A stretch of 64,000 bases of DNA from NCBI RefSeq assembly GCF_001025215.1, contig NZ_AP012330.1, forward strand, positions 248,001-312,000, written 5' to 3'. The position numbers and the translations under genes are program-made. The DNA is from Bifidobacterium pseudocatenulatum DSM 20438 = JCM 1200 = LMG 10505 (GTDB taxonomy: Bacteria; Actinomycetota; Actinomycetes; Actinomycetales; Bifidobacteriaceae). The notes under the pieces were generated by a model. That model did no database searches. It saw only the letters and a list, made by a program, of their open reading frames with translations, and was not told the origin of the DNA. Shown here in pieces: positions 6,485 to 41,875 of this stretch (its first letter is position 1; each line of letters opens with the position of its first letter).

Positions 6485-7174
6485 ATGGAAAAACTGACTA
6501 CTCTTACCGGCGTGGCCGTGCCGCTTCGCCGTTCCAATGTCGATACTGACCAGATTATTCCAGCCGTGTTCTTGAAGCGCGTGCAGAAGTCCGGTTTCGA
6601 CGACGCGCTGTTCTATGCGTGGCGTCGCGATCCGGAATTCGTGCTCAACCAGCCGGAATACAAGCGGGGCAAGATTCTCGTTGCCGGACCGGATTTCGGT
6701 ATCGGATCTTCTCGTGAACATGCCGTGTGGGCATTGCATGATTACGGCTTCCGCGTGGTGATTTCGTCTCGTTTCGCCGACATTTTCTACGGCAACACCG
6801 CGAAGAACGGCGTGCTGGCTGCGATTATGCCGCAGGAGTCCGTTGAGTTGCTGTGGAAGCTGCTTGACGAGGAGCCGGGCCGTGATATGACGGTGAGCCT
6901 GGAGGATCGCACGGTGACGTGCGGCGACGTGACGCTGCCGTTCGAAGTGAACGACTATACCCGTTGGCGCCTGATGAACGGCTATGACGATATCGATCTG
7001 ACGTTGCAGTATGAAGACGATATTGTGACATACGAGAAGATGCGTGCCGAAAAGTTCCCGTTCAAGCCGAAGACGCTGCCGGCGAAGCGTGAGCCGGAGC
7101 AGTTGATCGCGTCCGCGCGCGAAGGCGAATACCCGGATTGGCAGGGCCCGCTTGCCGATCGCGGCATCATCTGA
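6485..7174 (+). CDS. leuD: 3-isopropylmalate dehydratase small subunit
   Basis: Swivel-domain partner of LeuC in the second step of leucine synthesis. The 229-residue protein has the family signatures [10 protein letters not shown] near the N-terminus and [11 protein letters not shown] in the middle, the latter being the substrate-binding loop. The ATG at 6485 gives the expected [13 protein letters not shown] start; only weak AG-rich sequence precedes it, in keeping with translation from the leuC transcript. The C-terminus keeps the usual aromatic-rich tail. No hairpin terminator follows directly; a repeat array begins about 30 bases downstream. Confidence 0.96.
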
Positions 7175-7204
7175 GTTGGCGTCTGGCTAGGTGCGCGGGC
7201 TGTT

Positions 7205-7520
7205 TGCGGGGTGATTCCTCCAGTGGGTGGAAGGAACACCCCGCTTGCGTTGTTGCGCGGGCTGTTTGCGGGAGGATTTTTCCAGTGGGTGGAAGAATTG
7301 GGACGTCGGGATGATTGTTTGCGGGAGGATTCTTCCAGTGACTGGAAGGATTGGGATGTTATGTGATGCGTGAGCGGGAGGATTCTTCCAGTAGGTGGAT
7401 GTTTTTGGACTTTGAGACGGTCCGTAGCGGGGTGATTCCTCCACTGGGTGGAGGTTTTGGGACGATTAGGGGACTCATATTGTCCGGATTCTTCCAGTGA
7501 CTGGAAGGATTGGGACGTTG
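7205..7520 (+). repeat. family A palindrome array 1 (six units, 53-bp spacing)
   Basis: Fills most of the 442-base gap between leuD and the next gene. Six imperfect palindromes of the type CTTCCA-n5-TGGAAG are centred near 7225, 7287, 7340, 7393, 7446 and 7499. The last five are exactly 53 bases apart. Units share flanks such as GGGAGGAT before and GATTGGGA after the core. All units point the same way. Arms vary in matched pairs, for example CTTCCA/TGGAAG at 7491-7507 and CCTCCA/TGGAGG at 7438-7454. No gene is supported in the gap. Confidence 0.85.
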
Positions 7521-7616
7521 GGATTGCTGATTATGTGAGATTTGCGCGGGTTTTGCATATGAGACGCGCTATGGTGGGCTTATTGTTTCGTGCTTTCGTA
7601 GCTTTCGGAGAGAAAA

Positions 7617-8795
7617 ATGAGCCAGGGTTTTGCGCCGTTTTATGATGTCAATCGCACGTATGAAGACAACTATTTGCAAGGGCCGTTCGGCGCGTTTGCC
7701 GAAGTGTTGCGGGCTGATGCGTCCGATTCTGCGGGATCGGTCACGTCTGTTGTTGCTGAGGTTGCGTCCGATTCCTCCAGTGAGGTTCAGGGCGTTCAGA
7801 CCATTCAGGCCGCTCAAGCGCAGGAATTCCTTGGTTTTCGTGTGAATCTGCCGTTCGGTATTCCAGCTGGTCCGCTGCTGAATGAGCGTTTCACCACGGC
7901 CGCTTTCCGTATGGGCTTCGATCTGGCGGTATACAAGACGGTTCGTTCCCGCGCATGGGGCTGCAATGCGTTCCCGAACGTGCTGGCCGTGCATCCGCGG
8001 AATGCCGATGGTTCGCTGGTTCCGGGCAGTGCCGAACTTGACGAGGGTGTGCTTGCCGATACCCGTTATGAGCTTCCGATTTCGATTTCCAACAGTTTCG
8101 GCGTTCCCTCCCGTGATCCCGACGAATGGCAGCCGGACATGCAGAAGGCAATCGCCGCAGCCGGTGACGGCCAGCTGCTGGTGCCGAGCTTCCAAGGCTC
8201 CCGCGTGGAGGGCATGGATCGTGAAGCGTATATCGCCGATCATGTCACCACCGCGCATTTGGTTGCCGAAACTGGCGCTGGCCTGATGGAAATGAACACC
8301 AGCTGCCCGAATGAGGGACATAATCGTCTGTTGTGCCACGATCCGCATTTGGTCGGCGAGATTACGGAAGCGGTGAAGAACGAAATCGGCGATCGTCCGC
8401 TGATCGTGAAGCTCGCATACATTCCGAATGATGCCGATCTGGAAATTATGGTGAAGGAAACCGCCGGCCATGGCGCGGTGCAGGGTTTCTCCACCATTAA
8501 CACAATCTCCGCGAAGCTGGTGGATGCGAACGGCAATCAGGCATTGCCAGGCGCGGGGCGTGACCGTTCGGGCGTATGTGGCAATGCGATTCGTGGTGCA
8601 GGTCTCGATATGGTTGGCCGCCTGAATGCGATTCGCGAGAAGCTGGGTCTTGATTTTGCGATCGTTGGCGTGGGCGGTGTGATTCGTCCGGAAGATTACA
8701 AGGCGTACCGCGAGGCTGGTGCAAACGCGGTGATGAGCGCTACGGGTGCCATGTGGAACGCCCGTTTGGCGCAAGACATTAAAGCCGCACTGTAG
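7617..8795 (+). CDS. dihydroorotate dehydrogenase-family flavoprotein
   Basis: FMN-dependent TIM-barrel enzyme of 392 residues, of the dihydroorotate/dihydropyrimidine dehydrogenase family. Visible signatures are LPFGIPAGPL near residue 78, the substrate-binding loop EMNTSCPNEG near residue 226 (with Cys230 available as catalytic base), and the phosphate-binding GVGGVIRPEDYKAY near the C-terminus. An Ala/Ser/Val/Gln-rich stretch of about 40 residues (near 30-70) has no counterpart in typical PyrD. It stands alone between two repeat arrays rather than in a pyr operon, so it may be a second, specialised paralogue; its substrate is not certain. GGAG lies 6 bases before the ATG. Confidence 0.85.
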   Translation: MSQGFAPFYDVNRTYEDNYLQGPFGAFAEVLRADASDSAGSVTSVVAEVASDSSSEVQGVQTIQAAQAQEFLGFRVNLPFGIPAGPLLNERFTTAAFRMGFDLAVYKTVRSRAWGCNAFPNVLAVHPRNADGSLVPGSAELDEGVLADTRYELPISISNSFGVPSRDPDEWQPDMQKAIAAAGDGQLLVPSFQGSRVEGMDREAYIADHVTTAHLVAETGAGLMEMNTSCPNEGHNRLLCHDPHLVGEITEAVKNEIGDRPLIVKLAYIPNDADLEIMVKETAGHGAVQGFSTINTISAKLVDANGNQALPGAGRDRSGVCGNAIRGAGLDMVGRLNAIREKLGLDFAIVGVGGVIRPEDYKAYREAGANAVMSATGAMWNARLAQDIKAAL

Positions 8796-8847
8796 TCACA
8801 GGTTCAATTGCGCCTGATTTGCGCTCTGTTGCGTTTCACCGTCCTTT

Positions 8848-9085
8848 TTTTCCCATTCGCTGGAAGGATTAGTGCAGCACGGGGGTAGCTGTCCGTCCTG
8901 ATTCTTCCAGTGACTGGAGGGTTTTGCCCGCTGAGATGCAGTTTGGTGGGATGATTCTTCCAGTGACTGGAGGTTTTTGGACGGTGGAGGGGCTTGTATC
9001 GGGAGGATTCTTCCACCGACTGGAAGTTTTTGCCCGCTGGGATGCGGTTTGGCGGGTGGATTGTTCCAGTGGCTGGGAATTTTGG
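8848..9085 (+). repeat. family A palindrome array 2 (five units, 53-bp spacing)
   Basis: Occupies the 423-base gap before murA. Palindromic cores are centred near 8858, 8912, 8965, 9018 and 9071, that is 54, 53, 53 and 53 bases apart. They have the same orientation and flanking words as array 1, including ATTCTTCCAGTGACTGGA. The last unit is degraded. The remaining 130 bases up to murA hold no recognised gene or clear hairpin. Confidence 0.85.
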
Positions 9086-9218
9086 TCGAAAGTCGAACGA
9101 AATTGGGAGACACTGCGCTGAACGCGGCATTTCACGAGCCCACTACATGCCTTATGGCAAACTGAGGGTTAGTGTGTTTCAAGCTTGAACCGTATAAGGG
9201 AAGCGAAAGAGGTTGAGC

Positions 9219-26369: not shown

Positions 26370-26471
26370 CTATCTCGCTTATATATGGCAGGTCGGTTGG
26401 CTAAAACAGCCAAAAACGTACCCCCGAAGTGCTGTTTTGCTGAGGACGTCTGCCATATATAAGCGAGATAG
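26370..26471. repeat. 102-bp element bounded by perfect 22-bp inverted repeats
   Basis: The arms at 26370-26391 and 26450-26471 are exact reverse complements over 22 bases. The 58-base interior forms alternative stems: TTGGCT/AGCCAA (26397-26413) and AAAACAGC/GCTGTTTT (26403-26438). It lies in non-coding DNA between two genes, after a further copy of the TTATATATGGCAG core at 26337. The form suggests a miniature inverted-repeat element or a long structured RNA hairpin. No target-site duplication was recognised. Confidence 0.75.
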
Positions 26472-26492: not shown

Positions 26493-26618
26493 TGTCCGTT
26501 TCTGCAGAATCGGACGTTCATAGGCTGGTTTTTGGTGTTTGGATGTCCGTTTCCGGTGAATCGGACAGTTGGGCTGCTGTTTTTGGGTTCTGTTTGTCCG
26601 TTTCTGTGGAATCGGACA
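26493..26618. repeat. family B palindrome array 1 (three units, 51-bp spacing)
   Basis: Three 22- to 24-base imperfect palindromes with arms TGTCCG and CGGACA start at 26493, 26544 and 26595, exactly 51 bases apart, between the aminotransferase and gnd genes. Units 2 and 3 and the spacer between them are repeated almost identically at 29140-29214. No coding role is supported, although a 51-base period keeps reading frames open. Confidence 0.85.
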
Positions 26619-29088: not shown

Positions 29089-29264
29089 TGTCCGATTCTG
29101 GAGATTCGGACATATGGAAGCCCATTTTGGGTGCGTACATGTCCGTTTCCGGTGAATCGGACAGTTGGGCTGCTGTTTTTGGGTCCTGTTTGTCCGTTTC
29201 TGTGGAATCGGACAAACATGCACCGGTTTTGGGTTTTGTCTGTCCGTTTCTGCCGAATCGGACA
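29089..29264. repeat. family B palindrome array 2 (four units, 51-bp spacing)
   Basis: Four palindromes with TGTCCG/CGGACA arms start at 29089, 29140, 29191 and 29241 (spacings 51, 51, 50), filling the gap between gntK and gntP. The interval 29140-29214 matches 26544-26618 at all but one of 75 positions, in the same orientation. The array sits inside a presumed operon, so it would be transcribed with gntK. Confidence 0.87.
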
Positions 29265-35411: not shown

Positions 35412-35439
35412 TCTTGATCCCGCCAGGGCTTTAAGCGTT

Positions 35440-35680
35440 CGGATTTCTCCACTCGATGGAGAAATCTTCCCGCTTACAGTGGCGTTTGCGTCCGTATTCC
35501 TCCAGTAGGTGGAGGAATACTCCCATTGGTTGGCTGGTTTGCGTCCTGATTTCTCCAGCGACTGGAGCTTTTTGCCCGCTAAGGGGCTTGTGGACGGGGT
35601 GATTTCTCCAGTGGGTGGAGGTTTTTGCCCGCTGAGGGGCTGGTTTGCGTCCGTATTCCTCCAGCGAGTGGGGAATTTGG
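35440..35680 (+). repeat. family A palindrome array 3 (five units, 53-bp spacing)
   Basis: Occupies the 393-base gap between rpmB and recG. Cores are centred at 35454, 35507, 35560, 35613 and 35666, all exactly 53 bases apart. Arms are perfect but differ in sequence: TTTCTCCA/TGGAGAAA (35444-35464), TTCCTCCA/TGGAGGAA (35497-35517), CTCCAG/CTGGAG (35553-35567). The orientation is the same as in arrays 1 and 2. Confidence 0.88.
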
Positions 35681-35746
35681 GCGGTTTGAGTCGTACCCAG
35701 TGGTAGAAGCCGCATCTGTCGGCATAACTGGGGAGAATGGTGCGTT

Positions 35747-41447: not shown

Positions 41448-41875
41448 AATGGCTCTCCTTGTATAACTAGGGGTGTGCGTTTCGTTTTCTGTGTGGGGCA
41501 CGGAATCCGAAACCCACATGTTCCTCACGTCACGCGATAGTTAGAGGGCCTCGCGCGCGCGAATAACTTACCAAGTATAACCGTGGGGTACGGACGGATG
41601 GGTCTTAGGATGTTTCCCGCTCTATGCGACTTTCCGAATCCGTGCAAAACCGGGAAGTCGTTTGTCTGATTCTGCGGAAACGGTCAATTATGCGGCGAAT
41701 GTGATGCCTTGAATGACCGAATCGGCAGAATCGGACATTTGCTGGCATTCGTGAGATGTTTGCGTGGGTCTACATGGCGGAATCGTCGGAATCAGGCAGG
41801 CTGGCTACACTTGGAGGTTCCGAGTTTGCGTATGTCCGTTCGGAGTGAACGGTTTGCATAGGGGGAGTTGCCTGA
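41448..41875. other. gap between rpsP and the EEP-family gene, with a decayed family B pair
   Basis: This region must hold the rpsP promoter, though no convincing boxes were found. Two degenerate family B units begin at 41663 (TGTCTGATTCTG) and 41714 (ending GAATCGGACA at 41737), again 51 bases apart. The 20 bases near 41551-41570 are almost only G and C. No gene is supported. Confidence 0.5.

Follow-up and report, generated by a model that had tools for sequence, protein, structure and literature searches.

Arrays of 53-bp-period palindromes between genes of Bifidobacterium, possibly read as DNA

Introduction

What holds a row of palindromes at a nearly fixed spacing in the gap between two bacterial genes, and are such palindromes read as RNA or as DNA? 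This question is raised by an array at positions 7206 to 7518 of the window, by which we mean the whole 64,000-nucleotide stretch of DNA that was analyzed. The window corresponds to bases 248001 to 312000 of the source genome (G000), which consists of one contig of 2,313,752 bases. A preliminary description, made from the sequence of the window, had proposed that the arms of these palindromes change in pairs, and that the units either are bound by a dimeric protein or form a chain of RNA hairpins. Here we examine the family to which these units belong, called family A below, across Bifidobacterium genomes.

Results

Three palindrome arrays in the window

The array consists of six palindromes in one intergenic gap, with dyad centers at 7225, 7287, 7340, 7393, 7446 and 7499 and center-to-center steps of 62, 53, 53, 53 and 53. 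It is flanked by a gene for an Aconitase_C protein, which we take to be leuD-like, and by a DHO_dh gene. Two companion arrays lie in the same window. In the following list, unit limits are columns -9 to 29 of the unit alignment.

6485..7174, + strand: upstream neighbor of the 7206-7518 array, Aconitase_C domain (PF00694)
7206..7244, no strand assigned: unit 1, center 7225, GCG...CCTCCA-GTGGG-TGGAAG...CGC, with unit 2 following 62 bp on
7268..7306, no strand assigned: unit 2, center 7287
7321..7359, no strand assigned: unit 3, center 7340
7374..7412, no strand assigned: unit 4, center 7393
7427..7465, no strand assigned: unit 5, center 7446
7480..7518, no strand assigned: unit 6, center 7499
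7617..8795, + strand: downstream neighbor of the 7206-7518 array, dihydroorotate dehydrogenase family (PF01180)
8839..9090, no strand assigned: second array, 5 units, centers 8858, 8912, 8965, 9018 and 9071
35435..35685, no strand assigned: third array, 5 units, centers 35454, 35507, 35560, 35613 and 35666

The first unit of the second array (center 8858) is degenerate, and this array is flanked by the DHO_dh-like gene and by a gene of the EPSP_synthase family. A RecG-like gene lies downstream of the third array. At up to three mismatches, a 21-base core pattern matches the window 15 times, compared with 0.01 expected from dinucleotide-preserving shuffles. Tandem Repeats Finder independently reports a period of 53 at 7263-7392, 8900-9076 and 35484-35671. 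The preliminary description had placed the last five centers of the first array 53 bases apart, and all five of the positions it gave are exact; its count of 16 units in three arrays (6 + 5 + 5) is likewise correct.

Family size and distribution

Within the stretches that were fetched from the source genome, we called 85 units in 20 arrays of at least two units each. One or two of these units are doubtful, and one sits 64 bp from its neighbor. Two further near-identical arrays are present at 2276 and 2278 kb, beyond the 20. Arrays and open reading frames (ORFs) match between approximately 2251.6-2253.9 kb and 2276.0-2278.3 kb (L046 and L047) with a displacement that is always 24,388 bases, which points to segmental duplication or to a repeat of the assembly.

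Family A is intergenic: among the 20 arrays, no overlap with a called gene exceeds 45 bp, which is the overlap that was allowed. With a cruder ORF picker, several of the longest ORFs ran across arrays. The prospect, raised in the preliminary description, that units would be found equally inside genes is thus not borne out for family A, although it is for the possible sister family B described below.

A sequence-only model (R1) was built from 76 units, among which the seven of an array at 1996 kb had been given the less likely direction; R1 is flawed to that extent, whereas the pairing test described below is symmetric. R1 matches at an E value of 0.01 or better occur in 18 of 112 Bifidobacterium genomes. 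Ten genomes (G000, G006, G019, G020, G028, G030, G038, G041, G052 and G069) have at least 10 matches, G083 has seven, and the other seven have one or two each. Across 161 genomes of the bacterial family, 14 have a match at 0.001, two of these being single weak matches in other genera. The family A pattern matches one viral contig (one core match, L186) and one family B pattern matches none, and a plasmid search found no match to the array. Two unannotated fecal phage records (MT837080.1 and MT837411.1) carry partial array matches. Host DNA at contig ends is a possible source of the phage and viral-contig matches.

Unit anatomy and symmetry

The 53-bp unit is a long dyad of the form GCG[GG|TC]..ATTCYTCCA-N5-TGGARGAAT..[CC|GA]CGC. 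In the 82 units first collected, CC at positions 5-6 and TGG at 13-15 are invariant, A at position 7 is present in 80, and the five central bases vary. Exact CCA and TGG are present in 320 of 338 called units from seven genomes, a conservation that is favored by the use of a search pattern containing the core. CCA-N5-TGG is also the site recognized by the restriction enzyme PflMI. The outer arms exist in two states (GCGGG or GCGTC), with GG or TC at -6 and -5 and GA or CC at 25 and 26. These states are coupled locally and are nearly independent across the dyad.

Dyad symmetry extends to the linker. When 74 called arrays were scored against letter-shuffled controls, the position-specific linker signal reached a mean z score of 5.14 in the forward and 5.02 in the reverse direction. 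Half-unit matrices correlate at 0.92 overall and at 0.77 in the linker part, compared with at most 0.31 when shifted. Because the linker scores equally both ways once composition is controlled, the element is symmetric, and half-units of roughly 26.5 bp alternate in orientation along an array.

Apparent direction follows the replichore

The symmetry of the linker bears on the preliminary statement that all units point the same way, since the lean that gave this impression follows replichore and base composition. In the six genomes for which positions were available (G038, which is without positions, was left out), a plain matrix calls “+” for 19 of 19 right-arm arrays and for 3 of 40 left-arm arrays. 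The + strand GC skew is positive in 19/19 and 2/40 of these arrays, respectively, and the TA skew in 19/19 and 3/40. The origin was placed at base 1, which is supported for G000, where the contig starts with dnaA, dnaN and a RecF-like gene, and was assumed for the other five genomes. We rejected a fixed unit orientation as called by the plain matrix in these six genomes, because the call rests on composition.

The skew is stronger inside arrays (GC 0.25, TA 0.29) than in neighboring non-ORF DNA (0.11 and 0.04; 13 other loci). For the three arrays of the window, GC skews are 0.42, 0.28 and 0.18 and TA skews are 0.27, 0.35 and 0.39. A G/T bias of the leading strand, at positions where either of two letters is tolerated, would give the units their apparent direction.

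Arm pairing does not exceed column composition

Paired arm changes were central to the preliminary description, and we found none beyond what column composition provides. Over 17 arm pairs in 76 units, 70.4% are paired, compared with 71.8% after shuffling, and 492 of 500 shuffles are at least as high. Versions of the pair structure slid out of register reach at most 50.1%; the true register is higher, as is expected for any dyad. No symmetric column pair in the 76 units has a P(WC) below 0.10, and the strongest couplings are between neighboring columns. The 7206-7518 array itself includes both matched arms (CCTCCA/TGGAGG in unit 5, CTTCCA/TGGAAG in units 3 and 6) and mismatched arms (CCTCCA/TGGAAG in unit 1, CTTCCA/TGGATG in unit 4). 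The claim that pairing is conserved rather than sequence is not supported, since arm pairing is not above that of shuffles and it is the sequence of the CCA/TGG core that is conserved.

The inner stem TCCA/TGGA is paired in nearly all 76 units, and the outer arms are unpaired in 44 and 49 of the 76 at two pairs. An apparent anti-pairing of outer arms (pooled odds ratios of 0.33 and 0.13) was rejected, because it disappears once states are shuffled within arrays and is thus a mixture effect. With states shuffled within 45 arrays, the outer arms of a unit show a weak excess of the same state (65/173, 0.376 versus 0.337, P = 0.046), which hints weakly at pairing or symmetry, and a weak same-state deficit is seen across linkers (44/153, P = 0.043).

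Both strands of the array are predicted to fold as RNA better than shuffled sequences (z scores of -7.26 and -7.81). Such folding is expected, because any palindrome array gives it without selection on RNA. No Rfam match to the array was found, the only matches in the window at gathering thresholds being two tRNAs, and a search for terminators and promoters in 7100-7700 returned none.

Constraint, spacing and change in unit number

Among 50 orthologous unit pairs, which are not independent, CCA/TGG carries 0 substitutions in 300 positions, compared with 118 in 2,650 overall. Spacing is exactly 53 bp in 217 of 259 cases and 52-54 bp in 253; some spacings are 52, 54 or 55, and those of G006 are mostly 52 bp. 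The preliminary description had asked whether the spacing is kept in other genomes, and indeed dyad symmetry and 52-54 bp spacing recur across seven genomes, both in orthologous and in unrelated arrays. A comparison of 11 orthologous array pairs gave 241 substitutions and 0 internal gaps within arrays versus 143 and 6 in flanks (P = 0.003). In one array pair, length has stayed constant despite 29% divergence (73/254). Shared descent and conversion between units can be alternative keepers of the core and the period.

Array sites are common to several species at many loci. At these fixed sites, unit number changes mostly in 53-bp steps, with 5/5/2/1, 5/8/6/2 and 5/5/5/2/2 units at three orthologous sites and 5/5/5 versus 1/1 at the site of the third window array. 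No fixed array size seems to be needed, because unit number varies freely down to one. Array ends are sharp, in that 0 of 148 positions one period outside resemble decayed units.

Other sites are more restricted. A search of up to 1,500 bases downstream of leuD, with three mismatches allowed, found the array in only one of 26 other genomes (G038). At the nagB site, examined as a candidate empty site, 10 of 20 genomes searched gave no match. No clean empty site with a target duplication was found. By eye, a different repeat of about 150 bases lies at the leuD stop codon in L092, L095, L096, L099 and L111, and in L096 the end sequence of leuD is repeated behind it.

A possible sister family

A second set of palindromes, family B, has the form GTCCGWTTC-N4-GAAWCGGAC and a period of 51. 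A possible relationship between families A and B rests on a common GTCC(N)GATTC element. Three stretches of the window contain family B.

26494-26617: 51-bp-period palindromes
29090-29263: 51-bp-period palindromes
41664-41736: 51-bp-period palindromes

A long inverted repeat (ctatctcgcttatatatggcag ... ctgccatatataagcgagatag), noticed by eye at approximately 26370-26471, adjoins one family B array. In addition, B-like sequence occurs at 7721-7742 and 7764-7785, where the DHO_dh-family gene (7617-8795) encodes its variable N terminus.

G000 has 68 forward family B matches at up to three mismatches versus one for a reversed-pattern control; most of the matches fall at 34-160 kb, and further ones are near 274-290 kb and 1905 kb. 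At up to two mismatches, 16 of 112 genomes have at least 15 matches. Fifty-one bases equal 17 codons, and 14 of 29 family B groups lie inside ORFs as delineated by a simple caller, reading S-D-S-x-E-S-D. B-like units are in frame within an aldo/keto reductase gene (PF00248; G000 121421-122494, L182), which carries two units in G000, G019 and G020 and one in G001, G006, G028 and G030. The gene lacks them in eight other aligned genomes, and G071 and G046 were not alignable. Family B arms show no compensation either: the variable pair is A-T in 32, T-T in 18 and A-A in 4 of 54 units.

Comparison with known repeats

MIRU-VNTR loci consist of intergenic tandem units of similar size whose copy number varies at fixed sites. 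Family A resembles them in that unit number varies at fixed sites, but its units are dyads that diverge strongly within an array. CRISPR arrays share the regular spacing of palindromic repeats, whereas the units of family A are not identical and its linkers have a consensus. The CRISPR of B. pseudocatenulatum has 33-bp repeats and spacers of 32-37 bp (PMC4121622).

The closer parallels are REP sequences and BIMEs, the latter being regularly spaced palindrome copies of alternating orientation (PMC2817692). Like these, family A consists of intergenic palindromes in many dispersed copies, with regular copies alternating in orientation; it differs in its strict 53-bp period and in showing no arm covariation. 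The two REP super-families are recognized by an unpaired tag, GTAG or CGTC, lying outside a stem (PMC3733652). Family A has CGTC only inside the dyad, on both sides, as one outer-arm state. Seven of the 112 genomes have the REP transposase family (PF01797), three of them array-rich (out of 10) and four not (out of 102), and the family does not track the arrays. G000 is among the seven, and its PF01797 gene may be of either the RAYT or the IS200 type. In the text that was searched, neither PMC3733652 nor the REP survey PMC12306157 mentions Bifidobacterium.

For Rickettsia palindromic elements (RPEs), which are palindromic repeats in protein-coding genes, the proteins that bear them have been tabulated (PMC2635572). 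Family B resembles these elements in that it also occurs in frame within genes, but family A is absent from called genes and has a period, 53, that is not divisible by 3. A search of open full text, the scope of which excludes subscription papers, found no description of a bifidobacterial repeat of this 53-bp palindrome kind.

Discussion

We tentatively propose, with confidence somewhat short of even, that the units are read as DNA by a putative dimeric binder at five-turn spacing, and that they constitute a BIME/REP-like bifidobacterial family. Each dyad would be a binding site in which the dimer touches the CCA and the GCG patch of either half without reference to the other. With a period of 52-54 bp, or about five turns, dimers bound in succession would lie on the same side of the DNA, and unit number would change through recombination between units. 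This proposal retains one part of the preliminary description, in which a dimeric protein was suggested at a spacing of about five turns. The kept dyad symmetry and the 52-54 bp spacing fit that suggestion.

A serious but doubtful alternative is that the arrays are selfish palindromic elements whose half-units owe their spread to a mobilizing enzyme that acts on single strands or through recombination, as for REP/BIME or RPE sequences. CCA-N5-TGG would then be the signal of this enzyme, and the host would gain nothing. Such an origin would suit the dispersal of copies, the BIME-like alternation of half-units, the sharp array ends, the species-limited sites (as seen for the leuD-site array) and the occurrence of the possible sister family in frame within genes, with presence and absence between species. 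Strand polarity by replichore could also be given by single-strand transposition. However, no mobilizing gene was found (PF01797 does not track the arrays), many sites are old and common to several species, and a clean empty site with target duplication did not emerge. A hairpin substrate would also predict pairing, yet there is no covariation.

The same absence of covariation weighs on an RNA hairpin array, in which transcribed units would stabilize or end messages of the flanking operon. The folding z scores and the nearly constant pairing of the inner stem are compatible with it, and several arrays are flanked by codirectional called genes, but the outer arms are often unpaired, several arrays are oriented against called genes or lie where such genes converge, and neither a terminator-like site near the first array nor an Rfam match was found. 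Given that arm pairing is no higher than in shuffles, although both strands fold well, the chain of RNA hairpins offered in the preliminary description is not supported, and we regard such a role as unlikely. A neutral tandem repeat, in which likeness between units comes from slippage and conversion without recognition, is very unlikely. Copy number does vary by whole units, and units inside an array turn over faster than those at its edges; nevertheless, substitution is uneven and spares the core, length stayed constant in the array pair with 29% divergence, and the family is dispersed with one consensus.

A more far-reaching version of the DNA reading, which we consider quite improbable, is that the arrays serve as address marks with a polarity along the chromosome. 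Filaments of a nucleoid or segregation protein would form on the five-turn dyads, with direction set by the leading-strand choice of half-site, and separate territories would be marked by the 51-bp family B, which in G000 lies mostly 34-160 kb from the origin, and by the 53-bp family A, which is mostly outside.

If our proposal that the units are read as DNA is true, common gut bifidobacteria hold about twenty multi-site targets for a putative protein. Because these targets lie at fixed sites with natural variation in unit number, the function of interspersed palindromes would be directly testable. Furthermore, the strand dependence of the two interchangeable half-site forms would document, in nature, how leading-strand bias acts on a site under constraint.
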